From a virus, in the IMG/VR virus record IMGVR_UViG_3300027741_000022, positions 123,645 to 187,644 of that record: a stretch of 64,000 nucleotides of DNA, one strand, 5' to 3'. Position 1 is the first letter of the stretch, and each line of letters begins with the position of its first letter. The position numbers and the translations under genes are program-made. Shown here piece by piece: positions 7,527 through 42,960 of the stretch. Below the pieces are notes generated by a model, which saw only the letters and a program-made list of their open reading frames with translations, did no database searches and had not been told where the DNA came from.

Positions 7527-7871
7527 ATGACAAGCGAGAATGTTGTTGTAATTTCTTGGTATGGCGGTGTTGTTGAACAGGTTTTCTTTGAATCAAGGGA
7601 AGATGCTATCAAGCGTTGTTTGTCTCACAATATGAGTGAGCTTCATTATTCTGACCAACTTGATGATGAAACCAAGGAAGTCATAAATAAAATCTTGGAA
7701 TTGATGAAGTCTGATAAGTGGGACGAAGCTAATAGTTTGTGGCATGATGAGAATATGTGGGAATTGGATTATCAGTATTCTCATCAAATGGAATGGCGTC
7801 CTATTGACAAGCCGGAGAGTCTCGAAACAGCTTTGGCTTGGCTAAAGACTGATCAGGTTAAAAGCACATGA
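7527..7871 (+). CDS. Hypothetical protein
   Basis: 114 residues. Contains a Trp/Glu/His-rich helical middle (MKSDKWDEANSLWHDENMWELDYQYSHQMEWRP, described in pieces) suggestive of a compact helical domain. Shares the transcription unit that begins at the 7292 element. Overlaps the next start by four bases. Confidence 0.7.
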   Translation: MTSENVVVISWYGGVVEQVFFESREDAIKRCLSHNMSELHYSDQLDDETKEVINKILELMKSDKWDEANSLWHDENMWELDYQYSHQMEWRPIDKPESLETALAWLKTDQVKST

Positions 7872-8077
7872 CTTCCATCGTAGTTAAAAACGGCATGAGG
7901 TTGTGTCAAGACAATCTGCTTCGTAAGTTTGCAAACTTTGGGACATTTCCTGAGTGTGTTAAGATTTACAAAAGCTATGGTTGGGCTGAAAAAGCTGCCA
8001 ATAAGATTGGTGGCGAGATTGTGATTCTTGACGCAGAAAGCTATATGGACGCCAGTGGCGATGTAATTAAGGTTTGA
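7868..8077 (+). CDS. Small hypothetical protein
   Basis: 69 residues (MTSIVVKNGMRLCQDNLLRKF...). ATGA overlap with the upstream gene. The middle KIYKSYGWAEKAANKIGGEIVILDAESYM looks like a small alpha/beta unit. Not recognised. Confidence 0.65.
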   Translation: MTSIVVKNGMRLCQDNLLRKFANFGTFPECVKIYKSYGWAEKAANKIGGEIVILDAESYMDASGDVIKV

Positions 8078-8095
8078 AAAGAAAGTTTTTAAAAA

Positions 8096-8302
8096 ATGAA
8101 TTGGCTTGGTACACAACTTGATCTTAAGACTGACGATGGTGAATTGAATGAGACTCGATACGGCGAGTTGATGAACAACCTAAATCCCAGTAGTTTGTGT
8201 GAGTTTTTTCGTGAAATTGGACTCACCGCTAATGAAACTAAGAGTCTTTTGATTAAAACTCTTTATGAAGTTGAGACTAATTCTGGTGATTTCGGTACTT
8301 GA
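8096..8302 (+). CDS. Small hypothetical protein
   Basis: 68 residues (MNWLGTQLDLKTDDGELNETRYGEL...). Contains SLCEFFREIGLTANETKSLLIKTLYE, likely two helices. No Shine-Dalgarno is obvious (AAAGAAAG 10-17 bases upstream is weak). Family unknown. Confidence 0.6.
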   Translation: MNWLGTQLDLKTDDGELNETRYGELMNNLNPSSLCEFFREIGLTANETKSLLIKTLYEVETNSGDFGT

Positions 8303-8313
8303 AGGCACTTAAA

Positions 8314-8625
8314 ATGGAATGGCTAAGTTATTTTGGTTATCGCCGTCCTATTAATGGACAAAAGATTTTCTATTATGGCGAACATATTGGGGTTTGGCGT
8401 GGAACATATAGCTATGATCCAAATGATCCAGTTAGCCCTCATCGCATGATTTGCAGTGAAAGAGATAAGGAAACTGATGAAGTCCTTTCTCAATACGGTT
8501 TATCTAATCTGACTATGATTGTGGATCGTAGCGATTGTCCTTGGTGGATGGCTGATGATGGTCAAGAAAAACCATTAAAGCCTAGTGAGCCTTATCCAAA
8601 GGATTATCCTTCACAAAAGAATTAA
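8314..8625 (+). CDS. Hypothetical protein
   Basis: 103 residues from ATG 8314; a TTG at 8299 overlapping the upstream stop is the alternative. Aromatic- and Pro-rich (EWLSYFGYRRPINGQKIFYYGEHIGVWRG, PWWMADDGQ, KPSEPYPKDYPSQ). Probably a small beta-rich domain; not recognised. Confidence 0.65.
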   Translation: MEWLSYFGYRRPINGQKIFYYGEHIGVWRGTYSYDPNDPVSPHRMICSERDKETDEVLSQYGLSNLTMIVDRSDCPWWMADDGQEKPLKPSEPYPKDYPSQKN

Positions 8626-8640
8626 ACAGAAAGGTTAAAA

Positions 8641-9054
8641 ATGACTATTAAATCTAAAGAGTTGGGTATTATTTCGGTAGATGCTGGTGATGTGGTTTGT
8701 TTTAGTATGGACCGTTGTCTGGATATTGCCAAACGTCTTAACATGAGCGTTGATAATTTTATTGGAAACTTTAGTGGCGTAAAGTGCGAGTTTAGTTCAG
8801 ACGGTGTTTATGGTGTGAATAAAGTAACTGCCGTAGATCTCGTCGGTTCGACTTGCGACATGGTGTTAATTGGTGGTGCTGTAACCAAAAATCTTCGTAG
8901 GTTCCTGAAAGAAGGTGAGCAGGATTTCAATGAGTTCATGGATTCTCATCCTCGAAACGGAGAGATTGGTTTCGGCAAGGAATTCAATAGGGAACTGTTT
9001 GCTGAAATTGCATATGAACATCGTCGGCAACTGCTTGATAATCCGTCCTGTTAA
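8641..9054 (+). CDS. Hypothetical protein
   Basis: 137 residues (MTIKSKELGIISVDAGDVVCFSMDRCLDIAKRL...). A hydrophobic alpha/beta-like first half with two Cys near residues 20-26, and a Glu/Phe-rich second half (RRFLKEGEQDFNEFMDSHPRNGEIGFGKEFNRELF). No known family. Confidence 0.7.
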   Translation: MTIKSKELGIISVDAGDVVCFSMDRCLDIAKRLNMSVDNFIGNFSGVKCEFSSDGVYGVNKVTAVDLVGSTCDMVLIGGAVTKNLRRFLKEGEQDFNEFMDSHPRNGEIGFGKEFNRELFAEIAYEHRRQLLDNPSC

Positions 9055-9102
9055 ATCTTGATACCAATTTTGATCAAATGATAAAGATCGAGAAGTTACA
9101 TC

Positions 9103-9474
9103 ATGAAAATCGTTGAACAACAAATGATGGATGCTGTTGTTAATAAACACAGCGTTCGTCTTGGAACCACCCATGTAAATTATGAAGGTGGTGTTTCCAA
9201 GGTTTATTTTTACGGCACTCAAATTGCCGAAGTCACAGATAAAACTGTGAGGATTAGGAATTGTGGACACACAACTTCTACAACAAAAAGTAGACTCAAC
9301 GCTATTCTTTTGAGTCTTGTTGATGATAAGTGGATTTATCAAAAAAATAATGTTTGGTATATCTCTGGCAATCCCGGCTATCGTTTTGATAGTGCTTTTC
9401 TCAAAGGAGTTGAAGGCGAGTGGATTGAATTTTCAAATGATTTTCTTTTAAAATCATTTGTTCAACAGGATTGA
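9103..9474 (+). CDS. Hypothetical protein with C-terminal LLKSF motif
   Basis: 123 residues. Middle region looks like a small beta barrel (TTHVNYEGGVSKVYFYGTQIAEV). The very C-terminus is NDFLLKSFVQQD, placing the LLxSF motif at the opposite end from most other carriers. Its stop is followed by the promoter at 9471. Confidence 0.7.
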   Translation: MKIVEQQMMDAVVNKHSVRLGTTHVNYEGGVSKVYFYGTQIAEVTDKTVRIRNCGHTTSTTKSRLNAILLSLVDDKWIYQKNNVWYISGNPGYRFDSAFLKGVEGEWIEFSNDFLLKSFVQQD

Positions 9475-9498
9475 TTTAATTTTGCCTTCAGCTATAAT
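9471..9498 (+). promoter_or_regulatory. Sigma70-like promoter for a leaderless gene
   Basis: TTGATT at 9471-9476, 16-base spacer, TATAAT at 9493-9498. The ATG of the next gene begins seven bases after the -10 box, so transcription would start at or next to the start codon. The same TATAAT-N6-ATG arrangement occurs at 27128 and 36040. Confidence 0.65.
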
Positions 9499-9504
9499 AT
9501 TGGC

Positions 9505-9813
9505 ATGAAAGCAATTTTAATTGATCCTCACGAAAATACCGTTGATATCGTTGAATACAACGGAGATCATCGCCACCTAAACAATTTGGTAGACAGTGAC
9601 AGATTCACAAAGGTGAAGCTGGAGAATAAAGATGTTCTCTATGTCAATTGTCGCCCTGTAATCAACAAATACACAAGATACTTTTCGATAGAAGGAAAAG
9701 AGTTTGCAGGACTAGGACTGATACTTGGCGATAAAGAATCTGATGTTGTTCATACTGTTGACTATTATAAAAAAGCAGTAAGTATGCACAGCAAAATATT
9801 CCAAATGAAGTAA
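9505..9813 (+). CDS. Hypothetical protein, probably leaderless message
   Basis: 102 residues (MKAILIDPHENTVDIVEYNGDHRHL...). No Shine-Dalgarno; a perfect TATAAT ends six bases before the ATG. The N-terminus MKAILIDPHExTVxxVEYNGD is of a type common in small phage proteins, and the later GKEFAGLGLILG is beta-like. Function unknown. Confidence 0.75.
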   Translation: MKAILIDPHENTVDIVEYNGDHRHLNNLVDSDRFTKVKLENKDVLYVNCRPVINKYTRYFSIEGKEFAGLGLILGDKESDVVHTVDYYKKAVSMHSKIFQMK

Positions 9814-9827
9814 ACAAGGAGGTTTAT

Positions 9828-10010
9828 ATGTATGTTCTTGTGACAACTGATGATCTCGATAAGGTTAATTATTACGGACCTTTTAACGATCCAGAAGAAG
9901 CGTTTGAGTGGGGAGTTAATAAATTTGATACTTCTCACACGCTTTCTACTCATTTCATTAATCCTCCATCAAAGAAGGATTATTTCGTTTATAACCCGGA
10001 GCTTAACTAA
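9828..10010 (+). CDS. Small hypothetical protein
   Basis: 60 residues (MYVLVTTDDLDKVNYYGPFNDPEEAFEWG...), with a strong AAGGAGG eight bases before the ATG. The DPEEAFEWG segment resembles proteins that handle a bacterial 'FxxxEEA' helix, but no family is assigned. Confidence 0.7.
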   Translation: MYVLVTTDDLDKVNYYGPFNDPEEAFEWGVNKFDTSHTLSTHFINPPSKKDYFVYNPELN

Positions 10011-10011
10011 C

Positions 10012-10203
10012 ATGAAATTTCAAGATCTTCAAAGGTTTTGTCTTGAGCGTGGATATACTGTTAAGCGTATTGAAAAGCATTATGAGTGGAAGCGAAATAT
10101 GGATTCCACAATTGGTATTGCTGATACATTGATTGAAACTCAGAAAGAAATTCTTAAAGATATAGAGCACATTAAAAATCATGACGTTTGCCAAGCTAAT
10201 TAA
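10012..10203 (+). CDS. First of three tandem FC-GY paralogues
   Basis: 63 residues: MKFQDLQRFCLERGYTVKRI at the start and NHDVCQAN at the end. The pattern M-x-F-x-x-L-x-x-FC-x3-GY-x-V-x-R is shared with the next two genes. Its last codons are read in another frame from the same DNA that encodes the start of the next copy. Confidence 0.65.
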   Translation: MKFQDLQRFCLERGYTVKRIEKHYEWKRNMDSTIGIADTLIETQKEILKDIEHIKNHDVCQAN

Positions 10204-10405
10204 GTTTTGTGACAAGAATGGATACGAAGTAGAGAGATCAAATAGAGAATGGTGGTGCGGTAGTCATTCAAAGTATTTTTATAAATGGACTAGTAAAAAA
10301 ACAGGCTATAGCGAATCTCATGATTCAATAGCAGAAGCGTTTGATGCCATACTAGGCGATATAGAGGACGAGGACGAAAATCATGACATTTGCCAAGCTA
10401 ATTAA
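10181..10405 (+). CDS. Second tandem FC-GY paralogue
   Basis: 74 residues starting MTFAKLIKFCDKNGYEVER and ending ENHDICQAN. It overlaps the first copy by 23 bases and the third by 23 bases. The first 15 residues are identical to those of the third copy. SEAFDAILGDIE-type acidic helix near the end. Unknown function. Confidence 0.7.
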   Translation: MTFAKLIKFCDKNGYEVERSNREWWCGSHSKYFYKWTSKKTGYSESHDSIAEAFDAILGDIEDEDENHDICQAN

Positions 10406-10598
10406 GTTTTGTGACAAGAATGGATACGAAATAGACCGAACGCCAGGAGGCGAATACTTCCATTCAAAATACGATTATAATTGGCGTAAAAAAGATGATG
10501 AAGATCTTAATTTCAATTGCTCAGACACCATACCAGAAGCATTTAGCGATATACTAAAAGATATTGAAGAACGAAAGAGAGAACAAATTGAAACCTGA
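10383..10598 (+). CDS. Third tandem FC-GY paralogue
   Basis: 71 residues starting MTFAKLIKFCDKNGYEIDR. Body HSKYDYNWRKKD and PEAFSDILKDIEER align with HSKYFYKWTSKK and AEAFDAILGDIED of the second copy. It lacks the NHDICQAN tail, because no fourth copy follows to supply it. Confidence 0.7.
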   Translation: MTFAKLIKFCDKNGYEIDRTPGGEYFHSKYDYNWRKKDDEDLNFNCSDTIPEAFSDILKDIEERKREQIET

Positions 10599-10833
10599 AG
10601 TTGGTAAAAGAGTTCGTCTTTTGTCCAAGATGACAAACCCAGATTCAAAGTATATGCCAGAAGAAGATTTGGCAGTTGGATCGGTTGGTACAATTACCAG
10701 AATTCACACTGAAAGTCGCCCTGAATTTCATGTTATTGAAGTTAAATGGGATTGCGGCAGAGGATTAAGCCTTCTTCCTTATATTGATAAGTTCGAAGTT
10801 TTTGATAAAGAAGAAAAGAAAAATGAAAACTAA
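10588..10833 (+). CDS. DUF4314-like SH3-type protein
   Basis: 81 residues if started at TTG 10588; TTG 10564 is the alternative. KPEVGKRVRLLSKMTNPDSKYMPEEDLAVGSVGTITRI, then VIEVKWDCGRGLSLLPYIDKFEV (quoted in part) follow the DUF4314 plan: G-x-RVxL, GxxGTVxxI, VxWDxGRSL, VDxFEV. The fold is a small SH3-like barrel; molecular role unknown. Confidence 0.6.
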   Translation: MKPEVGKRVRLLSKMTNPDSKYMPEEDLAVGSVGTITRIHTESRPEFHVIEVKWDCGRGLSLLPYIDKFEVFDKEEKKNEN

Positions 10834-11264: not shown

Positions 11265-11471
11265 TTGAAAAAAATCCAAAGAACTTGTAGACTCTGCGGC
11301 AAGCTAGTTGAAATGCTTGTTAATTCAAAAGATTTGTCTGACTGGAAAAGCGAAAAAAAATATATCCAAGATGCTATGCCATATCTTAGCGATAGCGAAA
11401 GAGAAATCTTAATCAGCAAAACATGCGGTGAATGTTTTGACAAAATGTTCCCACCAAATCCAGAAGAATAA
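11265..11471 (+). CDS. Small zinc-binding protein
   Basis: 68 residues from a TTG start. CRLCGKLVEML near residue 8 and KTCGECFDKMFPP near the C-terminus provide two C-x2-C pairs for one zinc. The second pair resembles CGRCFKKVF of the gene at 6122. The preceding 60 bases contain a short open stretch without a start codon that may be a gene remnant. Confidence 0.65.
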   Translation: MKKIQRTCRLCGKLVEMLVNSKDLSDWKSEKKYIQDAMPYLSDSEREILISKTCGECFDKMFPPNPEE

Positions 11472-11485
11472 ACAAGGAGGTTTTT

Positions 11486-11701
11486 GTGCGGCAGAAAATC
11501 AAGGATGTTATTGCAAAAGAACTTGGTTTGGTTGATATAGATGATAATGCAAGCATAAAGTTGCTTGGTGAAGATAGTATTGGAAGAATTGAATTGCTTT
11601 TTGCTGTAGAAACTGCTCTTGGTAAAAAGCTAACAGAGAGTGATATTCTTCAAATTGATACTGTTAACGATCTTGTGAGAGTTTTTGAAAAGAAAGATTA
11701 A
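11486..11701 (+). CDS. Acyl carrier protein
   Basis: 71 residues, GTG start with AAGGAGG seven bases upstream. The sequence LGEDSIGRIELLFAVE has the canonical D-S-(L/I)-x-x-x-E-L phosphopantetheine-attachment motif at residues 30-37, Ser31 being the expected attachment site. Length and four-helix pattern fit the ACP family (70-80 residues). ACPs carry acyl or peptidyl groups for fatty-acid, polyketide or lipoyl chemistry, and also bind other proteins. No partner synthase is visible, so it may serve or sequester a host enzyme. Confidence 0.85.
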   Translation: MRQKIKDVIAKELGLVDIDDNASIKLLGEDSIGRIELLFAVETALGKKLTESDILQIDTVNDLVRVFEKKD

Positions 11702-11788
11702 ATGGAATTTATCTTGCTTGTTGCTATTTCTTTTTTGTGTTTTGCCTTCAGTTTGATTCTATTCAACTTACTACCATATCATGTCTAA
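11702..11788 (+). CDS. Tiny membrane peptide
   Basis: 28 residues, almost entirely hydrophobic (MEFILLVAISFLCFAFSLIL then FNLLPYHV), one predicted membrane helix. It starts one base after the ACP stop and overlaps the next gene by eight bases, which favours real translation. A membrane-modifying or anchoring role is possible but not shown. Confidence 0.5.
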   Translation: MEFILLVAISFLCFAFSLILFNLLPYHV

Positions 11789-12131
11789 GAAAAAAGCCAA
11801 AAAGAAAACAATTCAAAAGAAAATATCCTACAAAAACTTTAGTGACTGGTGGGATAAAGTTGGTTCAAAAGAAGTTGATAAGATTGAAAAAGCTTGGCTT
11901 AAAAACAATGAACCAAATGATGATGAAGATGAAGGCGGTGGCGATCATTGGCATGTGAATCAAATGATGCACAATGGCGATGCTCACGAAATGACCTATG
12001 AAAATGCAAATAATGCATATGAAAAAGGTTTGGGTGGTGAACAAATGGATCAAGGAGATAGTTTGTATTGTGAATTAGATGATGTAATTTACAAAGCATA
12101 TGAAATAGGGAAAAAGTTGAAGAAGAAATAG
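11781..12131 (+). CDS. Hypothetical protein with basic N-terminus and acidic His-rich middle
   Basis: 116 residues: a Lys-rich start (MSKKKAKKKTIQKK), NFSDWWDKVGSKEVDKIEKAW, an acidic/Gly stretch DDEDEGGGDHWHVNQMMHNGDAHEM, then helical ENANNAYEKGLGG. It ends ten bases before the next GGTACGCT element. Confidence 0.7.
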   Translation: MSKKKAKKKTIQKKISYKNFSDWWDKVGSKEVDKIEKAWLKNNEPNDDEDEGGGDHWHVNQMMHNGDAHEMTYENANNAYEKGLGGEQMDQGDSLYCELDDVIYKAYEIGKKLKKK

Positions 12132-12132
12132 C

Positions 12133-12160
12133 TTGACAAATAGTTTCTTCCCGGTACGCT
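12133..12160 (+). promoter_or_regulatory. GGTACGCT element, class A (copy 2), with a TTGACA upstream
   Basis: AGTTTCTTCCCGGTACGCT at 12142-12160. In this copy alone a perfect TTGACA (12133-12138) lies 16 bases before TACGCT, as a -35 would. This supports reading TACGCT as a -10 element. It drives the TilS-like gene. Confidence 0.7.
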
Positions 12161-12212
12161 ACACAGACGAGCAGAGAGTGTAGACGCATATTTTATTTCC
12201 GAGATAAGCGGA

Positions 12213-12860
12213 ATGATTAAGATTATCAAAGAAATAGCTCCGCTGGATAAGCCTTGCTACTTTGCCGTTAGTATGGGCGTTGATAGCGTCTCAGCGTATC
12301 TGTGGATGGTGAACAAGGGCTATAAAGTAACCCCAATTCATTTCAATCACGGTCTAAGGGTTCAAAACGATTTGATGGAAGCAAAGTTTGTTGAGCTTTG
12401 TGAAGCTACCAACAAAAAGCCCATCATTGGCAATGGCAATAATCTTGTAACAGAAGCAGAGTGCCGACAAGCTCGCTTAAATTTCTATAAAGAAGCTGTT
12501 GAGTATGATGGTGTGATTCTAACTGCACACCATCTTAATGATTGTGTTGAAAGCTATCTTCTCAATTGTTTTAGAGGAAAGCCGACTCATAACTTCTTTG
12601 AACTTGTGAGTGAATTTCCTGATTATAAGATTGCCCATCCCTTTTTGATCTCACGCAAAAAGGACTTTGCTCAATACGTTGAGCGAAACAACTATTCCAG
12701 GTTTATTGTAGAAGATGAAACAAACAATGTTGTGAAGGGCAGCCGTCGCAACTGGATTAGAACTACCATTGTTCCGGAAATGAATAGTCAGAAGTTGAGT
12801 CTGGAAAAGTATTGTCTTGAAAGAATCGAAAACATGATCGAAAACTTTATTGGAGTATAA
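12213..12860 (+). CDS. tilS: TilS-like tRNA(Ile)-lysidine synthetase
   Basis: 215 residues. TilS uses ATP and lysine to convert C34 of tRNA-Ile(CAU) to lysidine so it reads AUA. Motifs: PP-loop SMGVDS (20-25, Gly to Met against SGGxDS), NHGLR (45-49), EAECRQARLNFYKEA (81-95), TAHHLNDCVESYLLNCFRG (104-122), HPFLISRKKDF (142-152) and EDETNNVVKGSRRNWIR (167-183). Only the N-terminal catalytic domain is present; cellular enzymes are typically longer. It follows a GGTACGCT element. A CAU tRNA lies 11.5 kb downstream and is a plausible substrate. The Met in the PP-loop could mean altered specificity. Confidence 0.85.
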   Translation: MIKIIKEIAPLDKPCYFAVSMGVDSVSAYLWMVNKGYKVTPIHFNHGLRVQNDLMEAKFVELCEATNKKPIIGNGNNLVTEAECRQARLNFYKEAVEYDGVILTAHHLNDCVESYLLNCFRGKPTHNFFELVSEFPDYKIAHPFLISRKKDFAQYVERNNYSRFIVEDETNNVVKGSRRNWIRTTIVPEMNSQKLSLEKYCLERIENMIENFIGV

Positions 12861-12863
12861 AGA

Positions 12864-13052
12864 ATGGTTATTACTAAAGTTGCTGCATTAAAAACTGGTG
12901 ATAGGGTGGTTGTTGGTAATGAAGTTTTTGTTGTAACAGGATCGCATCAAACAGGACTTCATGATTTGCAAGTTTACATGAAAAGTGATTTGCATGAGTA
13001 TGAAATTAAACTTCCTTTGTTTGCTGGCGATAAAGTCCAGTTGGGGTGTTGA
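12864..13052 (+). CDS. Small SH3/KOW-like protein
   Basis: 62 residues: LKTGDRVVVGNEVFVVTGSHQTG, then HEYEIKLPLFAGDKVQLGC. The two GD-(R/K)-V turns and alternating hydrophobics suggest a small beta barrel of the KOW/SH3 kind. It is three bases after the TilS-like gene and shares its message. Confidence 0.65.
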   Translation: MVITKVAALKTGDRVVVGNEVFVVTGSHQTGLHDLQVYMKSDLHEYEIKLPLFAGDKVQLGC

Positions 13053-13054
13053 AA

Positions 13055-13360
13055 ATGAAAAATAAAAGTAAAGATTTGCTTGAAAGTTTCGATGATGAAA
13101 TTGAAAAAGGCTATACGCAATATCATTTCACAGTAACTGGTGGTTTTCATGTAAAAAATACTTGGAAACCTGCATTTGATTGTAATAACGAAATTTGTGG
13201 TTTTGAAAAATCAGACGGCACTATCATTGATCTTGCTGTTTGTCTCCTTATGCAGAACGACAAAGGCGAGAGGGTGATTTTTAGCGATAAGCAATTGGAA
13301 AAAATTGGGTTTGAAAGTTTAGAATACGATACGGCAAATTTTGTAGAAATACACGAATGA
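13055..13360 (+). CDS. Small protein with N-terminal KDLLESFDDE motif
   Basis: 101 residues from ATG 13055 (MKNKSKDLLESFDDEIEKGYTQ). The shared LLESFD motif is at residues 8-13. The body (HFTVTGGFHVKNTWKPAFDCNNEICGFEKSDG, quoted in part) is beta-like and unrecognised. ATGA overlap with the next gene. Confidence 0.7.
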   Translation: MKNKSKDLLESFDDEIEKGYTQYHFTVTGGFHVKNTWKPAFDCNNEICGFEKSDGTIIDLAVCLLMQNDKGERVIFSDKQLEKIGFESLEYDTANFVEIHE

Positions 13361-13563
13361 ACATCGAAGAATACAAAGCAAAAGTTATTTGGTATTTGAC
13401 TGAAGAATATATGATCGCTGATCTTGAAGATATGAGCAGAGGAAGCGATGAATTGAGCGATGAGGTTGACAATCTTATTGAGAGTGCTTACAAAAAAAAG
13501 AAAAGCATTATGGTAGCAGCAAGAAGGCTGAAAGCTATTATTGATATGTTTACTGAGAAGTAA
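13357..13563 (+). CDS. Small helical protein
   Basis: 68 residues (MNIEEYKAKVIWYLTEEYMIADLEDM...). Highly charged and helical; the C-terminal half is basic (YKKKKSIMVAARRLKAII). Translationally coupled to the preceding gene. Unknown. Confidence 0.65.
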   Translation: MNIEEYKAKVIWYLTEEYMIADLEDMSRGSDELSDEVDNLIESAYKKKKSIMVAARRLKAIIDMFTEK

Positions 13564-13582
13564 CTAACCAGGAGACTGAGCG

Positions 13583-13723
13583 ATGGAAAAAAAGTTATGC
13601 GAACTCAGTGAAAAAATTGCTAAACTCATGGAAGAATACAAAATGAGAGTTTATGACTTAGAATTCATCAACGAACTGATTGAAAAAACTATTGAACGTG
13701 ATGAAAAAGAGTGTTCGTATTAA
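13583..13723 (+). CDS. Tiny coiled-coil-like protein
   Basis: 46 residues (MEKKLCELSEKIAKLMEEYK...), with GGAG 9-12 bases before ATG. The Leu/Ile spacing (L-x2-L-x2-K-I-x-K-L-M) fits a short coiled coil that could oligomerise. Ends 12 bases before the next GGTACGCT element. Confidence 0.6.
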   Translation: MEKKLCELSEKIAKLMEEYKMRVYDLEFINELIEKTIERDEKECSY

Positions 13724-13735
13724 ATCATTCTAGCA

Positions 13736-13754
13736 AGTTTCCTCCTGGTACGCT
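13736..13754 (+). promoter_or_regulatory. GGTACGCT element, class A (copy 3)
   Basis: AGTTTCCTCCTGGTACGCT, 51 bases before the ATG at 13805. It follows the stop of an unrelated short gene and begins a new unit. Confidence 0.75.
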
Positions 13755-13804
13755 CTGCTGTTGTCGGATAGAGACACTATACACACTAGAAAAGGAACTA
13801 TAAA

Positions 13805-27677: not shown

Positions 27678-29135
27678 ATGCAAATTAAGGATGATAGCGG
27701 GAAAGTTATTGCCAACATTGATCTTCAAGATGGCATCTCAATTCAAGAGCTTGTAAAAAGTCTTTCAAGCAAGAAGGGCTACAAGTCTGTTAATACATTG
27801 GTTTCTATCGAGGAAAGCTCTGATAAGAAGCAGATTGTTTTCAAGTTTAAGGATGGATCGATTTTTTATGATCTGCCCAGCAAGACTTTTGTTCGTGAGA
27901 ATGGAGTCAAGATTGGCGAACATTCTTTCAGGAACATCAAGCTTGAAATTAAGAACAAAGTAGCAAATGTAAACTTCAGGGATAACGACAATTTTTGGCT
28001 TTGTTTAGTTGAAAAGACTGATGTTGTTTGGATCAAGGTTTTCTTCAAGATGCTTGATATTTGGGCAAACAACAAGGCTACTGAAAATTGGATGAGTGCC
28101 AGAGACAGGAGCTTTAGAAACAAAGTTCAACGAATGATGGATGATAAAAAGTTTTTTGATTCTGTCGAAAGTTTTGCCAAGATTCCGCAGATTCAACAGC
28201 TTGATGATGCTGGCTTGAAAGGTTTCTATTTGGGCGTGCATAAAATCAGCGATAAAATCAACAAAGAAACTAAGGAAAAGGGTTTGATCAACAGAATTTG
28301 CATTAATGTTGGCAAGTCCAAAATGGATAATTGGTTTATGTTGAACATTGGCAAAGAAGTTTCTGATGTTTATGTAAATGATCGTTATCTTTCAAATTAT
28401 ATTGGAGACTACATCAAGTGTGGTGATAATAATATCAAAGATCTTTTTCAATATGTTTTTGAAACTTATCGTGGCGTAATTACTTTTTATCAGATTGAAA
28501 AGATTAAGGATTTGATTAAATTTGGTTATGAGCCAAAGAGGCTTATGGACTATCTTTACCGTGATATTTACAACCAGGGTGAAGAACTTGAGCTTGAATC
28601 AACTTGGGGCAACTGTGGTGCTTTGGGTGATTTTTACGATTATGTAAAAATGAACCGAGAAATGAAGCGCGATTTTGAAAAATATCCTCGTTATCTTGCC
28701 ACAATGCACAATATCACGCTCAAGAATTACGAGCTTGCGGAAGATAAGATTGTTGAAGAAAAGTTTGCTGAACGGGTTAAAAATCTCAAATCTATGAAGC
28801 TCGAATATATTGGCGATGATCATTGTGTTATTTTGCCAAAAAATTCAAAGGATTTGATTAACGAAGGTCAAAGTCTTAGTCATTGTGTTGCCAGCTATTA
28901 TAAGCGTATGGCTAGTGGCGAAACCAACATTGTTTTTCTGAGAAAGAAAAATAATATCAAAGAAAGCCTTGTGACCATCGAAGTTAATATTGACGAAAAT
29001 TCAAATCATAGTATAGTTCAAGCCAAGGGCAAGAACAACTCTGCTCCTCAGAAGGCTGAATATGATTTTATCAAAAAGTATTTGGATCATTTGAATAAGG
29101 AAGTTCAAAATGTCGATTTGTCCAACAACTGCTAA
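27678..29135 (+). CDS. PcfJ-like protein
   Basis: 485 residues. The C-terminal 90 residues match the PcfJ pattern: LINEGQSLSHCVASYYKRM (His-Cys at about 402-403), GETNIVFLRKK, SLVTIEVN, IVQAKGKNNSAP and FIKKYLDHLNK. PcfJ-like domains occur in plasmids and phages; biochemical activity is not established. The N-terminal 110 residues have two beta-rich repeats (KVIANIDLQDG; QIVFKFKDGS). It is the early counterpart of the long late proteins at 43-60 kb that carry related Cys motifs. Transcribed from the element at 27607. Confidence 0.75.
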   Translation: MQIKDDSGKVIANIDLQDGISIQELVKSLSSKKGYKSVNTLVSIEESSDKKQIVFKFKDGSIFYDLPSKTFVRENGVKIGEHSFRNIKLEIKNKVANVNFRDNDNFWLCLVEKTDVVWIKVFFKMLDIWANNKATENWMSARDRSFRNKVQRMMDDKKFFDSVESFAKIPQIQQLDDAGLKGFYLGVHKISDKINKETKEKGLINRICINVGKSKMDNWFMLNIGKEVSDVYVNDRYLSNYIGDYIKCGDNNIKDLFQYVFETYRGVITFYQIEKIKDLIKFGYEPKRLMDYLYRDIYNQGEELELESTWGNCGALGDFYDYVKMNREMKRDFEKYPRYLATMHNITLKNYELAEDKIVEEKFAERVKNLKSMKLEYIGDDHCVILPKNSKDLINEGQSLSHCVASYYKRMASGETNIVFLRKKNNIKESLVTIEVNIDENSNHSIVQAKGKNNSAPQKAEYDFIKKYLDHLNKEVQNVDLSNNC

Positions 29136-35157: not shown

Positions 35158-35415
35158 ATGAAAATTTTTAAGGAAGAACTTTTAAAAGTTGTCGGAGACA
35201 TTCTTTGTGATGTTTGCAACAAGTCTTGCAAGCATGAAATGAACTTTGAATCTGCAAGGCTGGCTGTAAATTGGGGCTATGAATCAAAAAACGACGGCGA
35301 TGCCTATTATGTTGATTTGTGCGAAGATTGTTTTGAACGCACACTTCAATACTTAAAAAGCATCGCCGTCGATCCAGAAAGGCTAAAGCCTAGAAACGAT
35401 TTCAGGTCAGAATAG
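35158..35415 (+). CDS. Conserved small zinc-type protein
   Basis: 85 residues from ATG 35158. ILCDVCNKSCKHEMNFESARLAVNWGYESKNDGD (quoted in part) then VDLCEDCFERTLQYL: the C-x2-C, WGYxS-KDG and C-x2-CF pattern is a widespread bacterial/phage hypothetical family. Likely one zinc. Its C-terminus overlaps the convergent GroES-like gene by 14 bases. Confidence 0.7.
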   Translation: MKIFKEELLKVVGDILCDVCNKSCKHEMNFESARLAVNWGYESKNDGDAYYVDLCEDCFERTLQYLKSIAVDPERLKPRNDFRSE

Positions 35416-35692
35416 CTTTGATAGACTGTGGCTCCATAAGAACCTTGTCTCTTTCACTTGAATCGTAATTTGGTACAGGAACACCGTTACCAGATAGTAA
35501 AACCCTATCGCCTACTTTTAGTCCATAATTTTCGCTAACCAAGGAACCTAAAGCTAAGATAACTGCTTGAAATTCCTTCATTGTCTTTGATTCGTTGCTG
35601 AGGATAAGTTTAGTTCCAAGCATTTCTTGAGCGGTTAAAAGTTCAAGTAGTATTTGGTTTCCAATTGGGGTACACTTAGTCACTGGTTTCAT
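35402..35692 (-). CDS. groES: GroES-like co-chaperonin
   Basis: 96 residues. PIGNQILLELLTAQEMLGTKLILS matches the first strands and mobile loop of GroES; SKTMKEFQAVILALGSLVSENYG and LKVGDRVLLSGNGVPVPNYD match the GEVVAVG and (V)KVGDxVLF strands; KVLMEPQSIKAIL matches the C-terminal strand. The length equals that of Cpn10. T4 encodes gp31 for folding its capsid protein with host GroEL; a similar role is likely. A divergent promoter (TTGACA 35746-35751, -10 TATGTT 35722-35727, spacer 18) lies upstream on the minus strand. Confidence 0.85.
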   Translation of the reverse strand: MKPVTKCTPIGNQILLELLTAQEMLGTKLILSNESKTMKEFQAVILALGSLVSENYGLKVGDRVLLSGNGVPVPNYDSSERDKVLMEPQSIKAILT

Positions 35693-36603: not shown

Positions 36604-36666
36604 GGCAGCCCAGTCCACAGGGCAAAGGTTGTGGAATTGCTTGTATGTCTACTTAGAAATCAAATA

Positions 36667-37104
36667 ATGTCTCCGAAATCACTGTCTCTTAACTTTGAAC
36701 AACTTGAAAATAAGATAGCTTTGTCAACACTCTCTGGAATTGCGTATCATGGAAGAAAAGCTTCAATCCCAAAGACAGTTCATCAAAATGCTCAAACACC
36801 AATTACCAAACCAGTTATTGTGCAGAATCAGGTAAATCCAACAATCCCAATAAAATTTGTACAAAACATAGCACCAGATGGCAGTATACGTTGTGTAATC
36901 AATCAATCTGAGAGCCTTCCTATAAATACTCTAAAGGCTGTCCAAACAGTTGAAAATCTTTCAACTGTTTTGCCTTTGATCAATAAACATCCCGGAGCCG
37001 TTATTGTTATTAACTACTCTAATGAATTCACAGTAAACGGCTGTGTTCGGGGATCATCTGGCGAATCTTACTGTTATCGTATTGCTGGTCCCGATGCCAA
37101 TTAA
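36667..37104 (+). CDS. Protein with planctomycete-type secretion signature
   Basis: 145 residues from ATG 36667. The N-terminus MSPKSLSLNFEQLENKIALS resembles the L-x-FExLExRxLLS motif found at the N-terminus of many planctomycete extracellular proteins. The body is Pro/Gln/Ile-rich and then a small domain with two Cys (SIRCVINQSE, NGCVRGSSGESYCYRI). It may be surface-exposed, or reflect acquisition from a host. Convergent terminator shared with the next gene. Confidence 0.6.
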   Translation: MSPKSLSLNFEQLENKIALSTLSGIAYHGRKASIPKTVHQNAQTPITKPVIVQNQVNPTIPIKFVQNIAPDGSIRCVINQSESLPINTLKAVQTVENLSTVLPLINKHPGAVIVINYSNEFTVNGCVRGSSGESYCYRIAGPDAN

Positions 37105-37137: not shown

Positions 37138-39630
37138 CTATTCAGCAGACTCAGGAATATTCAAAATAATTGGCTGCCTATCGGAGTGCTTTCGATTTTC
37201 ACACTTACATAGTAATTCAGGATTTATTATCTGCGATCTTGCTGAACTTGTGGCTGAGCTAATAAAAATTGGGTTGCCTTCACTTGCTCCTGTGGTTCTT
37301 TCTTCCCAGCCAAAATCAACTAACTGCTTAATTGAAAGCAGAGATATAACACGCCTAGCACTAGGCGTAACATTCATTGGATAAGTGCTAACCATCAACT
37401 CATCAGTTAATCCTGGATAAGTGATTATTGAAGGGGCGGAATCACTTCTAAAATTATTCTCCCAATGGGATGAAATTGATCCTGAGCTACCTTCGTTTTC
37501 AACCGGGTATTTAGTTCTTGAAACAGGTACTCCTGATGGCCCAAGAACAGTAATTGAATTATATGCAGCTTGTGCGTTTGTATACACAGCTCCATTTAAG
37601 AAGCTATTGACTGGTGGAGTTCCGCCATAGTATGAATCCCAATATTGACCTATTCCTAATGTATGCCCTAATTCATGTGTAAGTGCAGTTACCCATTGAT
37701 CGGCAGGAGCGTTCTCATACCTAAGGTTGAGTCTTAATTGCATACTTATAGTCGTTTGTCTATTTTTGCCCCCTGATGTATAACCTGCCCATCCAATAGG
37801 ACGAGAATCTGCAATTGTGGTCGAAGTGTTGTCTCTAAACGTCTTAAAGAATGGTATTGTTTGTCCATAAAATCTATCTGTTGGATCGTTTACTAAATAT
37901 GTGCCTGGTTCCAATCTGACGCCCACCCATGGCTCTTGATAATTTGATGCGACTAAACTTGCTATTTGAGATTTGACCAAAGCGTTATATTTAATATACT
38001 TATACCATCTATCTGCTGCGGCATCGAGGCAGTGCCTATAGCTTACTCCATTTGGTGAAACCCCCTCTAAATTAACAGCATCTCTCCAAGAAGATTTATC
38101 GAACAGTTTATTTGATGTTGTTACAGTTACATCTCCCGTTTGAATTGAATTTGATGGTCCAGCACCTGCCTCATTAACAGCTCGTATTGAAAGTGATGTT
38201 GAAACATCACCTAATCCTATCACAACAAGTGTGTTTGGGCTTGTTAGTTTAACTTCACTGAGAGTGAACGGAACTCTTGCTGGAAAGGGGCCAAAATTTT
38301 CAATTGCTTCGACAATATAACTGCTTATTGTTCCTCCTCCGTTATCTGTGGGCGGAGTAAAAGTCAGAGTTACTTCAATATCGTTGATAACAGTCGCAAC
38401 TAAATTAGTAGGAGCGTTCGGTAGAACTACTCCAGGCATTACAGGTTGTGATGCTGGAGAAAATTGATTGCTTCGACCTCTAGAATTTACAGCAGCTATT
38501 CTAAAGACATAGGAAACTCCGTTTGTTAATCCTGTGTTTTCATACGTTGTGCCAGAGCCAGTGTTTATGCTTACATATGCTGTGTCAGCTTGTGAGCTTA
38601 TTTTCCTTTGAATAACATAACCGGTTATTGCAGATCCACCATTGTATGGTGCTGTCCAACTTAATGTTACTTTGCCAAATCCTTTTGTAGCCGTAGGTGC
38701 TGAGGCAGTGGAGGGAGCTACAGAAGGAGTTAATGAACTTGAATTAGCCGAATAATTACCTCTGCCCTTAGAGTTTACAGCCGCCACTCTGAAAACATAT
38801 GAATCACCCAATACCAAAGCTGGATATGAAATTGGGTTTATAGCTGCTGTTGTTACATTGCCCAAGGAAACTAAATCAGTAAAACTTGTGTCTAAACCTG
38901 ATGCTAGTTTTCCTTGGATAACATAATTGGTTATGACAGAACCATTATTTGTTGGTATAGTCCAACTTAAATTTATGAGGCAAGTGTTGGTAAGAGAGTT
39001 AAAAGTAGTGTTTGCCACCGAAATATTTGGTGCACTTGGAGAAGTTGATGGAACTACAACCGCAGAATCAGCGGACCAAACACTTGCTCCTTTTACATTT
39101 ATTGCGGCTACACTATAAACATAGGGAGTTCCATTTGTCAATCCTGTGTTTGTATATGAAGTTGCAGTAGAAACTCCGTCTACTAAACTTGTATAAGTTG
39201 CTTGTCCATTTACCTTTCTTCTAATAGCATAGTCGGTTATTGCAGCACCATTATTTGCTGGTATATTCCAACTTATTGTTACTTGACCATTACCTGAACT
39301 GCAAGTTGGAGCAGCTGGTGCCACTGGAGTAGTAGATGGGGTTACTGCTGCAGAATTAGCTGTATATGCGCCTACGCCAGATGCATTTTTAGCTGCTACT
39401 TTAAAAACATAACTATTACCATTTGTACAAGCTACAGTCGCACCTACAGTTGCTTTGACTGGGTGTGAAACTGCCGTAAAACTAGTGTCTGGCTGACTGG
39501 CTAATTTTATTTGTATAACGTAATCAGTAATAGGAGAGCCACCGTTATTGGTTGGTGCCGCCCAATTTAAAAATACCGATCCGTTTTGTGACAAAACTGT
39601 TAAACCTGTTGGTGCTGCTGGTGCTGGCAT
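37138..39630 (-). CDS. Five FN3 domains fused to a leishmanolysin-like metallopeptidase
   Basis: 830 residues. Residues 3-505 are five fibronectin type III domains (each starting with a Pro/Ala-rich APTxL and containing YVIQxK, ExxGLTNGxxYVFRVAAxN and VTPS). Residues 506-790 form an M8-like zinc peptidase: ALTHELGHTLGIG (HExxH at 652-656), SSHWENNF with the probable third ligand His722, and DELM as Met-turn. Spacing of 66 residues between ligands fits leishmanolysin rather than classical metzincins. TATAAATA at 39643-39650 (minus) is T4-late-like. Likely a virion or secreted adhesin/protease that processes host surface; no signal peptide seen. Confidence 0.85.
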   Translation of the reverse strand: MPAPAAPTGLTVLSQNGSVFLNWAAPTNNGGSPITDYVIQIKLASQPDTSFTAVSHPVKATVGATVACTNGNSYVFKVAAKNASGVGAYTANSAAVTPSTTPVAPAAPTCSSGNGQVTISWNIPANNGAAITDYAIRRKVNGQATYTSLVDGVSTATSYTNTGLTNGTPYVYSVAAINVKGASVWSADSAVVVPSTSPSAPNISVANTTFNSLTNTCLINLSWTIPTNNGSVITNYVIQGKLASGLDTSFTDLVSLGNVTTAAINPISYPALVLGDSYVFRVAAVNSKGRGNYSANSSSLTPSVAPSTASAPTATKGFGKVTLSWTAPYNGGSAITGYVIQRKISSQADTAYVSINTGSGTTYENTGLTNGVSYVFRIAAVNSRGRSNQFSPASQPVMPGVVLPNAPTNLVATVINDIEVTLTFTPPTDNGGGTISSYIVEAIENFGPFPARVPFTLSEVKLTSPNTLVVIGLGDVSTSLSIRAVNEAGAGPSNSIQTGDVTVTTSNKLFDKSSWRDAVNLEGVSPNGVSYRHCLDAAADRWYKYIKYNALVKSQIASLVASNYQEPWVGVRLEPGTYLVNDPTDRFYGQTIPFFKTFRDNTSTTIADSRPIGWAGYTSGGKNRQTTISMQLRLNLRYENAPADQWVTALTHELGHTLGIGQYWDSYYGGTPPVNSFLNGAVYTNAQAAYNSITVLGPSGVPVSRTKYPVENEGSSGSISSHWENNFRSDSAPSIITYPGLTDELMVSTYPMNVTPSARRVISLLSIKQLVDFGWEERTTGASEGNPIFISSATSSARSQIINPELLCKCENRKHSDRQPIILNIPESAE

Positions 39631-39642
39631 AATTTATCTTTC

Positions 39643-39650
39643 TATTTATA
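39643..39650 (-). promoter_or_regulatory. T4-late-like TATAAATA box
   Basis: TATAAATA on the minus strand, 12 bases before ATG 39630, with GAAAGATAAATT between. Matches the T4 late promoter consensus exactly. Confidence 0.6.
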
Positions 39651-39663
39651 AAGTGTTAAGTGT

Positions 39664-42051
39664 CTATTCTGCTGTGCCGCCTGAAGTTGTATTGTCTGAA
39701 GTTGATTCAACATCTACGGTTAAACCAACTGTTCCTATTTGCTGTGGGATAATTTTATTTTTAATCTTATCAAATCCACACTTGTGAACATCGCCTATTT
39801 CTGGAGCTAGCGCAGATGAGTTTAATTTCAAAGTTGGATTACCCTCACTTGCCCCTGGATTTATTTCCTGCCAACCAAAATCTACTAATGTTTTAATTGT
39901 TAATTGTGATATAACAAAAGTAACATTTGGACGAAAATATCCAACCATTATTTCATTTCTAAAACCTGGATATGTTAACCCCAGTGATCCAGGAGCAGTA
40001 GCTGGTCTAAAGCTATCATCCCAATGACCTGAAGCAGTGCCGGCTCCACCTGTATTTTCAAGAGGAATTCTTGATCTGTTTAGACGGGTTATTGAATTAT
40101 AAGCAGCTTGGGCGCCTGCATAAGTATTGCCACTTAAGAAAAATTGAAAAGGAGGAGTGGCGCCTGGAAAATAAACTTCCCAGTCCTGAAAACCTCCCCA
40201 ATAAATACCTATTCCAAGTGCATGACCTAGCTCGTGGGTTAATATATTTATCCAATCTTTTTCTGTATATGTGCCCCAAGCACGCCAAAAATCATTTACC
40301 TCAAGATAAAAAGTTATTGAATTGTATTCCTTGCCACCAAGAGCTTTATATCCAAGCATTTGAGAAGCAGCAAGTTCATTTGATTTTGAATCACTAAACA
40401 AAACAAATTCTGTTAACGCCAAACCATTCCAACCAGAATTTTCAGAAGCTATTGTTGCTCTTGCTGAGGCGCTGTATTTAATATATCTATCCCATCTATC
40501 TGCTGCTTTATTTAACCATGTTCTATATGGCTCTTCAAGAATATTATACCAAGAAGACTTATTGAACAATTTATTTGAAGGAGTGACGCTATTTGATTCG
40601 TTTGAATAAAGTCCGATGCCTGCCACATTTTTAGCAGCTAACATAAATGTATGAGGCTCGTCAGTTAATCCATAAACCAATGTTCCCAATTGATAGTTAC
40701 TATCTATTATGTCCCATTCACCATCAGTGCTTGTCATAACAACATATCCAGTTATTGGAGCACTGCTATATGGTGGTGTGAAAGCCAAACGAACGCTTGA
40801 ATTTCCAACTAAAGATACGCTTAAATTTGTTGGTGCTGCTGGCACATCTATTCTTGGTATTATATAATCTGTCCAAGCACTAAAAGGACCAGCTCCTGCT
40901 GCATTATTTGCACGTATTTTAAATCTATACGAAGCTCCGTTTATCAGATGATCTAATACACGACTTGTGTTGGCTCCTTTTCTCCTTCTTATTGGCTGAG
41001 GAAATGATGTTTGTCCTTTCCAAATCCATTGAACTTCAATATCATAAAAGGTTATTGGGGCTCCACCGTTTGATGGTGCTTGCCAATTTAAAGTTATTTG
41101 TCCATTACCCGGTATTCCAGCTGGGGGATTGATTGCGCCTGGAACTGAACGTGGTGTTACTGGTTTTGATTTAGGACCATATGCACCTGTCCCCATAACA
41201 GTTTTTGCTGCAACTCTAAACACATAAGCCGTTCCATTTGTTAATCCTGTAATGTTTGCTACTTTACGGCTACCATCTGGTACTCCCTTGCCTTCATAAA
41301 CAACAGCAAAACTTGTGTCTGGATCTGTTGCTAATTTACTTTGAACCAAATAGACAGTATTTACAGGATTAGTTCCTCCGCTATATTGTGGCATCCAACT
41401 TAAATGAACATAACCGTTATGTGGTATTGTTAATAAAAATGCCGGGGCTCCTGGCAATGATGCTGGAATACAACCCAAAGAACTATTTGACCAAGGACTT
41501 TGCCCAGATGCATTTACTGCAGCTATTCTAAAATAATAAGTAAATCCGTTTCTAAGATTTAATGCTGTGTATGTTGTGGCAGCAGAAACGCTATCCGGTT
41601 TAGTTGACCAACTATTGGGATTCATTGCAGTAGATTGAATTATGTAATCAGTAATTGCAGATCCACCATCTGCTGGTGCTGTCCAATTTACAATTATTTG
41701 ATTATCACCCGCTATACATGTTGGAGTTGGTGGCTTACTTGGAATTGCTGATGGGGTTATTACCGAAGATATCGAAGAATATTCCCCGGTGCCAAATTCA
41801 TTCCTAGCGGCTACTCTAAAAACATAACCAACACCATTCACGCCATCAATTGTTGCTCCCGGAGCAGATGGTGAATCACTTTTACTTATGGGTTCAACAA
41901 CAGTAAAATTTTCATCTGGTTCATCTGCTAATTTTCTTTGAATAACATAATCAACAATATCAGAATCACTTGAAGGAACGGTCCAATTTAAATATACTGA
42001 TCTATCCTTGGACACTAGTCCTAAAATTGTTGGGGCTGCTGGCGTTGGCAT
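39664..42051 (-). CDS. Second FN3 x5 leishmanolysin-like metallopeptidase
   Basis: 795 residues, paralogue of the neighbouring gene with the same plan: five FN3 domains (about 3-490), then KLFNKSSW and an M8-like domain with ILTHELGHALGIG (606-610), SGHWDDSF (His676) and NEIM. The 66-residue ligand spacing is conserved. The C-terminal tail differs (KCGFDKIKNKIIPQQIG). The FN3 parts have diverged far more than the peptidase core, suggesting distinct targets. AGGAATT precedes ATG. Confidence 0.85.
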   Translation of the reverse strand: MPTPAAPTILGLVSKDRSVYLNWTVPSSDSDIVDYVIQRKLADEPDENFTVVEPISKSDSPSAPGATIDGVNGVGYVFRVAARNEFGTGEYSSISSVITPSAIPSKPPTPTCIAGDNQIIVNWTAPADGGSAITDYIIQSTAMNPNSWSTKPDSVSAATTYTALNLRNGFTYYFRIAAVNASGQSPWSNSSLGCIPASLPGAPAFLLTIPHNGYVHLSWMPQYSGGTNPVNTVYLVQSKLATDPDTSFAVVYEGKGVPDGSRKVANITGLTNGTAYVFRVAAKTVMGTGAYGPKSKPVTPRSVPGAINPPAGIPGNGQITLNWQAPSNGGAPITFYDIEVQWIWKGQTSFPQPIRRRKGANTSRVLDHLINGASYRFKIRANNAAGAGPFSAWTDYIIPRIDVPAAPTNLSVSLVGNSSVRLAFTPPYSSAPITGYVVMTSTDGEWDIIDSNYQLGTLVYGLTDEPHTFMLAAKNVAGIGLYSNESNSVTPSNKLFNKSSWYNILEEPYRTWLNKAADRWDRYIKYSASARATIASENSGWNGLALTEFVLFSDSKSNELAASQMLGYKALGGKEYNSITFYLEVNDFWRAWGTYTEKDWINILTHELGHALGIGIYWGGFQDWEVYFPGATPPFQFFLSGNTYAGAQAAYNSITRLNRSRIPLENTGGAGTASGHWDDSFRPATAPGSLGLTYPGFRNEIMVGYFRPNVTFVISQLTIKTLVDFGWQEINPGASEGNPTLKLNSSALAPEIGDVHKCGFDKIKNKIIPQQIGTVGLTVDVESTSDNTTSGGTAE

Positions 42052-42099: not shown

Positions 42100-42960
42100 A
42101 TGTTAAGCATAATCATACCTTTTAAAAACGATGACATAACTAGGCTGGAGAACTTATTGAGCCTAATTTCCTATGTAGAAAGATTTTGGACTTATGAGAA
42201 AATTATAGTTGTGGAGATGGATGAAAAACCCACAATATCTAACTTACTATCTGATAATATTGTTTATTTATTTGCAAAAGAAAAGAAAAACGAAATATGG
42301 AGCAGAAGCAAACGAATAAATTTTGCTTTGCCAATAATAAAAAGCCAGATTTTAATGATGTTGGACGCAGACGTGATAGTAGACTTCAACACAATAAAGC
42401 ATATTTGTGAAAAAATAAAGAATAAAGAATTAGATGCAGCAACACCATTCAATAAAGTGTTTCATATGGAAAGAAACATTTTATTGGATGCAATGCAGCA
42501 AAAAGAAATTAATCCAAACGAATTTGCAGAAAAAAACAAGCAACACACACTCAGAGAATTTGTTTCAAATGGAGGTTGTTTTATTTCAGACACTGCAACC
42601 TTTAAACATTTGAGAGGAATGAGCGAATTATTTTATGGATGGGGACTTGAAGACGATGAACTGATATACAGATATATGAAGTTGGGAAAAAAATACGGAA
42701 GGGTTGAAAATATTTGTGCTTTACACATAGAACACAAAAGAACAAATAACGCTATTCCAAACAAAGAGTGTTTCGCAGGAAATATAATCGAAAGACACAG
42801 AATAAAAACTTGGAGTAAAGAAAAGATACAAGAATACTACGGAATAACAGAAGACATTGGCTCTTATTCCATGCTCAATAAGCCGGCAGATCCTGACGAA
42901 GAAGAAAAAATAATAATACAAAATGAAAAGAAATTATATGGAAGGTTTTTTGAAGAATAA
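42100..42960 (+). CDS. Glycosyltransferase (GT2/GT7-C type)
   Basis: 286 residues. SIIIPFKN at the start and LMMLDADVIVDF (DxD at 89-91) are the nucleotide-sugar core of a GT-A fold. SNGGCFISDTATFKHLRGM then FYGWGLEDDELIYRYMKLG match the galactosyltransferase C-terminal (Glyco_transf_7C) pattern. It would transfer a sugar from a nucleotide donor, perhaps onto virion proteins or host glycans. AAATATAAAAA is directly upstream of ATG with no Shine-Dalgarno. Confidence 0.8.
   Translation: MLSIIIPFKNDDITRLENLLSLISYVERFWTYEKIIVVEMDEKPTISNLLSDNIVYLFAKEKKNEIWSRSKRINFALPIIKSQILMMLDADVIVDFNTIKHICEKIKNKELDAATPFNKVFHMERNILLDAMQQKEINPNEFAEKNKQHTLREFVSNGGCFISDTATFKHLRGMSELFYGWGLEDDELIYRYMKLGKKYGRVENICALHIEHKRTNNAIPNKECFAGNIIERHRIKTWSKEKIQEYYGITEDIGSYSMLNKPADPDEEEKIIIQNEKKLYGRFFEE

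Follow-up and report, generated by a model that had tools for sequence, protein, structure and literature searches.

Two adjacent phage genes encode FN3-bearing proteins with a divergent, putative leishmanolysin-type zinc peptidase domain

Introduction

Among the phage enzymes that open a path to the host cell, those best known act on sugars and peptidoglycan, and a locus in the virus record IMGVR_UViG_3300027741_000022 raises the question of whether some phages also carry their own enzymes for cutting proteins. The window analysed here, a stretch of 64,000 nucleotides covering positions 123,645 to 187,644 of that record, holds two open reading frames that a preliminary description had read as a pair of FN3-leishmanolysin fusions in a phage. 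Both frames are present and, because the record is a virus contig of 187,644 bp with a T4-type portal gene, the words "in a phage" are well supported. What has to be asked is whether the two products belong with leishmanolysin (peptidase family M8), how far their relatives share the same features, and what a phage might do with such proteins.

Organisation of the gene pair

The two frames lie next to each other on the (-) strand, at 37138-39630 (P1, 830 aa) and 39664-42051 (P2, 795 aa), with 33 bases between them, and the ORF list agrees with the coordinates given previously for both. Five FN3 domains had been described in front of each peptidase, and the Pfam fn3 model indeed recovers five stretches in each protein, at 138 bits in P1 and 145 bits in P2 against a cut-off of 25 (E 1e-40 and 8e-43, respectively). 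In P1 they span aa 1-96, 97-197, 198-306, 307-402 and 403-506 (38113-39630), and in P2 aa 1-100, 101-198, 199-303, 304-405 and 406-492 (40576-42051). The catalytic halves begin at NKLF in both proteins, and the M8-like domains extend over aa 507-790 of P1 (37261-38112), as delimited by the family alignment, and aa 493-745 of P2 (39817-40575). Each protein then ends in a Cys-bearing tail, at 37141-37260 in P1 (..LLCKCENRKH..) and 39667-39816 in P2 (..HKCGFDKIKN..). P1 and P2 are 37% identical over the length of their catalytic parts and 24-50% identical between their FN3 domains. A recent tandem duplication was considered as the origin of the pair and set aside, as the tree gives no supported sister pairing of the two.

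The residues expected of a zinc peptidase are present in both proteins. In P1, a motif scan found H652, E653 and H656 in a HELGH zinc/catalytic motif (37663-37677), followed by G659, a putative third zinc ligand, H722, in SHW (37465-37467), and M746 in the Met-turn DELM (37393-37404). The equivalents in P2 are H606, E607 and H610 (HELGH, 40222-40236), G613, H676 in GHW (40024-40026) and M702 in NEIM (39946-39957), all on the (-) strand. Both zinc motifs are as they had been described (HExxHxxG, SHW/GHW, DELM/NEIM), and 20,000 shuffles per protein never produced the motif set. The remark that there is no third His at +10 is also correct, given that neither HELGHTLGIGQ nor HELGHALGIGI has a His at the HExxHxxGxxH place of classical metzincins (M10, M12). 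The count of 66 residues between the ligand histidines needs a small correction: the value is equal in P1 and P2, as stated, but 66 is the offset from the second to the third His, and 65 residues lie between them.

Measured from the motif Gly to the third His, the insert is 62 residues long in both P1 and P2, and an insert of 62 residues from the motif Gly to the last His is also found in Leishmania major leishmanolysin (PMC9321319). This equality may be due to chance, since the insert varies within the phage family: the offset from the second to the third His is ~52-88 across the core family. In a more distant set, the viral contigs L140, L149 and L094, the third His follows HExxH at 122-125 residues, which constitutes a different spacing class.

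Assignment to the leishmanolysin type

Neither P1 nor P2, searched as whole proteins, reached the gathering score of the Pfam M8 model (PF01457), and the same model gave a weak match in only 7 of 17 domains of the family (best E 1.2e-4). Weak Pfam and NCBIfam matches of the whole proteins to M6, M66 and M57 were judged to reflect similarity at the level of HExxH, and these identities were rejected. Searches starting from P2 led to five bacterial proteins, mostly annotated as "leishmanolysin-related zinc metalloendopeptidase", and the bacterial proteins scanned with the Pfam M8 model passed its cut-off in four cases out of four. When the phage-family profile was aligned with a profile of the bacterial M8 proteins, hhalign gave a match of 99.5% (E 2.3e-22) that includes HExxH, PVE..GG.GT..HW, E(L/I)M and a C-terminal S.(L/M)T...L.D.GY. 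A profile search of the PDB returned matrilysin at E 0.0075, with the alignment confined to the HExxH helix, and leishmanolysin (1LML) at E 0.11. The spacing from the third His to Met is 17-48 residues in the phage branch (mostly 24-26) versus 11-13 among the bacterial M8 proteins compared, and this longer spacing probably contributes to the missed Pfam match. As the Pfam cut-off is missed, we describe P1 and P2 as a divergent, phage-specific M8-like branch and not as members of the Pfam family.

Structure models point in the same direction for P2. An AF2 model of its core, built from a 23-row alignment, has pLDDT 94.4 and pTM 0.93, and in a Foldseek search of the PDB, 1LML was the sole match below E 0.001 (E 6.9e-5, probability 1.00, TM 0.52 by query), a result obtained after the model was trimmed and the alignment deepened. 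The model of the P1 catalytic domain is less confident (pLDDT 81, pTM 0.87), and against the PDB it gave nothing below E 0.29, with weak metzincin matches only; for P1, the M8-like assignment draws on the alignment of relatives, the profile-profile match and the fold match, and for P2 on its own model and its similarity to P1. Taken together, the profile match to bacterial M8 proteins and the fold match to 1LML uphold the original M8 call, and they support the reading of P1 and P2 as predicted zinc-protease genes of the leishmanolysin type in a divergent phage branch. The two proteins should work like leishmanolysin, with zinc binding and catalysis predicted from their sequences.

Relatives and domain architecture

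We found ~30 distinct relatives, nearly all on viral contigs: one phage record (AP013547) plus contigs of IMG/VR, which are often fragments. Among host genomes, the one that was scanned gave a single distant match. Two alignments, of 17 and 23 relatives with 24-48% identity to the query, show no variation in HExxH, the glycines after it, the third His or the Met. In the tree, four bacterial rows and L149 are split from the main phage group (99/90), with L149 clustering with bacterial M8, and relationships within the phage group are poorly resolved. Several records hold two or three M8-like copies that have diverged from one another. In L012 (7167-8885; IMGVR 3300023179_000114), the peptidase reads as a circular permutation in which the half with HW and the Met-turn comes before the HExxH half; the gene is one open frame, the break lies within the loop that links HExxH to the third His, and the arrangement may be genuine or may have arisen in assembly.

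The N-terminal modules appear interchangeable among the phage members. The arm of five FN3 domains is found in the window proteins and in L061, and a single FN3 domain in L126, while other members carry RCC1 plus FGE-sulfatase (L007), FGE-sulfatase (L020), a sortilin/BNR-like module (L006) or DUF642 (L012). The N-termini of L016, L017 and L019 look Ig-like by eye and have no Pfam match, and other relatives have PT-rich, Ser-rich or D/P-rich linkers. For the FN3 part of P1 and P2, the matching PHROGs are annotated as tail proteins. At the other end, the peptidase of most phage members is followed by a tail with Cys residues (C-x-C or similar), for which anchoring, metal binding or inhibitory switching are possible roles. 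No clear hydrophobic N-terminal signal was seen in P1, P2 or nearly all phage relatives; L009 has one hydrophobic N-terminal stretch that depends on the start chosen, and a signal or lipoprotein peptide was present in two of the four bacterial M8 examples examined.

Gene neighbourhoods

In their own phage, P1 and P2 are not adjacent to identified head or tail genes: the T4-type portal gene (11281-13779 in record positions; PHROG portal E 6e-72) is ~147 kb away, and the record is fragment-like. LR756511, a 595-kb phage record that carries no annotation, encodes a portal with 50% identity to this one, and our record may thus derive from part of a very large phage genome. No match to Gp23 capsid or terminase models was found in the record, the Gp23 search having been run without a positive control. 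The neighbours of the pair are unknown genes and a glycosyltransferase-like gene (42100-42960, + strand; Pfam Glyco_transf_7C, E 3e-10) that is divergent from P2, and thus the window itself says little about a virion location. Further genes of the window include a GroES-like Cpn10 gene (35402-35692, - strand; Pfam E 1.6e-5) and a PcfJ-like gene (27678-29135, + strand; E 1.2e-23). The gene at 36631-37104 (+ strand) encodes a protein with the start ..LNFEQLENKIALSTLSG.., which we take to resemble the N-termini of planctomycete surface proteins and which is possibly a hint about the host; a planctomycete host was not adopted, only one protein of the record having this FEQLENKIALS start. The idea of a late promoter was dropped, since the genome shows no enrichment, compared with permuted octamers, of the T4-late-type TATAAATA box that precedes P1. 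Outside the window, the same phage carries a subtilisin-like gene near the portal gene (L030, G000:C1:17301-18275), whose product is ~41% identical to Bacillus myophage proteases and 51% identical to the subtilisin-like protein of L004. In the latter (7626-10676), M8-like, trypsin-like (Pfam E 6e-14) and subtilisin-like (E 8e-50) genes follow one another, giving three protease classes in a row.

The relatives are more informative. In L011, a T4-type portal gene (Pfam E 6e-81) precedes the M8-like gene by ~3.8 kb and five genes, and a head-tail adaptor lies four genes before the M8-like gene (three between) on the same strand. In L014, it stands between a match to a major head protein and tape-measure genes, on one strand throughout. 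The gene of L012 has a fibre-like gene downstream of it and, upstream, a gene whose product begins, as read from the sequence, like the head protein of L014. The 43-kb podovirus AP013547 has its M8-like gene after a surface-repeat gene, in a late module where it shares an overlap with the beginning of the large terminase gene.

Proposed role and alternatives

On balance, and by a modest degree, we favour the view that P1 and P2 are M8-type zinc endopeptidases on an FN3 rod, carried by the virion or released at lysis, that would cut proteins of the host surface or its matrix. According to this proposal, both proteins, lacking a signal peptide, would be produced late in the cytoplasm and would get outside as components of the virion, in its tail, baseplate, neck or capsid surface, or else through lysis; the FN3 arm would serve as a mount that holds or presents the enzyme, and the M8 domain, as the cutter, would cleave host-surface or matrix proteins. 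Since they lack a signal peptide, the two proteins would meet host-surface proteins only as part of a virion or after lysis, and a virion location is favoured because the genes of the relatives sit among head, neck and tail genes. It is from these neighbourhoods and the missing signal peptide that we infer a role at adsorption or release. The presence of two diverged copies suggests two substrates or two positions on the virion. Enzyme activity, zinc binding, attachment to the virion, substrate, host and timing are all predictions of the proposal.

A missing signal peptide is also compatible with public enzymes that are not attached to the virion and are freed when the host bursts, where they would digest envelope debris, matrix or proteins that trap the progeny. 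In L013, L046 and L061, moreover, the M8-like gene is directly upstream of a conserved cassette of five genes (L013:9165-12954, L046:1847-4260 and L061:6561-9157) for small, partly membrane-like proteins and, last, a protein that looks papain-like by motifs read by eye, and this cassette is possibly a module for lysis or release. (The papain-like gene of L013 is broken by an intein-like Hint/LAGLIDADG insert, which L046 and L061 seem to lack.) However, the portal, head and tape-measure context in L011, L014 and L012 better suits a part of the virion, and FN3, Ig and RCC1 arms are typical of surface structures, so that we regard free enzymes as rather unlikely.

We consider it improbable that the M8 fold acts solely as a binding module, that is, as an adhesin for which catalysis is dispensable. 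The basis for such a reading is a second paralogue in L070 (4051-13239; IMGVR 3300034106_006066), a 3063-aa ORF that adjoins an intact M8-like gene and in which HExxH is missing and other portions of the domain are retained; this domain is apparently inactive, and it indicates that an M8-like domain can persist without catalysis. It is the one exception to the full zinc motif, though, as HExxHxxG, the third His and the Met are kept in all other distinct full-length phage relatives, at 24-48% identity.

Processing of the phage's own structural proteins during assembly would fit those relatives in which the gene has portal, neck or head genes nearby, but it appears very improbable: known prohead proteases are small and do not bear long arms of the FN3, RCC1 or PT-rich kind, two or three diverged copies of the M8-like gene are often present, and no relative of P1 or P2 is found in LR756511, despite its closely related portal. 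Least probable of all is a modifier of the infected cell that shaves receptors and blocks superinfection or re-adsorption, as a surface protease could, because P1, P2 and nearly all relatives have no export signal and the protein would not get to the surface before lysis.

Significance

Virion-borne or lysis-released endopeptidases, the reading that we prefer for P1 and P2, would extend M8 peptidases to tailed phages, with E653 and E607 as the residues for a direct test. A broader and more tentative proposal, which we find slightly harder to believe than to doubt, is that tailed phages of several lineages, from large T4-type phages to a 43-kb podovirus, carry their own leishmanolysin-type branch on the virion as a protein-cutting counterpart of polysaccharide depolymerases. 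If this is true, passage through protein-rich surfaces would be served by swappable arms that present the enzyme, by tandem paralogues that each suit another substrate and, in some cases, by companion serine or cysteine proteases. Should such genes prove to be a recurrent and sequence-diverse family in the late regions of phages, S-layers, surface lipoproteins or a protein matrix would be barriers that phages cut through. The phage branch is apparently undescribed: a search of the open-access literature for leishmanolysin or peptidase M8 together with phage found no report of phage-encoded M8 peptidases, and leishmanolysin is mentioned in neither of the two large-phage papers checked. As the search covered open-access papers, this novelty is provisional.

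Comparison with known systems

Among viral proteins, the phage tail proteins of PHROG 6977 and PHROG 31 share FN3 repeats that align with those of P1 and P2 (E 4e-31 and 5e-15), but the match is limited to the FN3 part and leaves the peptidase domain uncovered. Metallopeptidase-like proteins of giant viruses (Cafeteria roenbergensis virus, Aureococcus anophagefferens virus and Indivirus) match the P1 model structurally, at E 7e-8 to 2e-5; they differ in belonging to viruses of protists, and identity in the matches is 13-17%. BAQ94410, a hypothetical protein of Nohivirus S31C1 (AP013547), belongs to the phage M8-like family and retains all motifs; it comes from a small podovirus, has a short D/P-rich linker in place of FN3 and bears no peptidase annotation.

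Outside viruses, the bacterial leishmanolysin-related zinc metalloendopeptidases (of Deinococcus, Alteromonas, Streptomyces and Rhodobacterales) are joined to the phage family by the profile match and by the common order HExxHxxGxG..W .. PVE..GG.GT..HW .. E(L/I)M .. S.(L/M)T...L.D.GY, and are set apart by their shorter distance from the third His to Met, the signal or lipoprotein peptide in half of those examined and their separate place in the tree. Leishmanolysin itself (GP63; MEROPS M8, PDB 1LML) shares with P1 and P2 the fold, HExxHxxG, the insert length found in L. major, the E-x-Met turn and the helix after the Met-turn. Identity in the fold alignment is ~14%, the third His and the Met are 24-26 residues apart in P1 and P2, and their catalytic part is ~250 aa long compared with 465-478 aa for 1LML. 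Unlike leishmanolysin, P1 and P2 are encoded by a phage, have no secretion signal and carry an FN3 arm in front of the peptidase.
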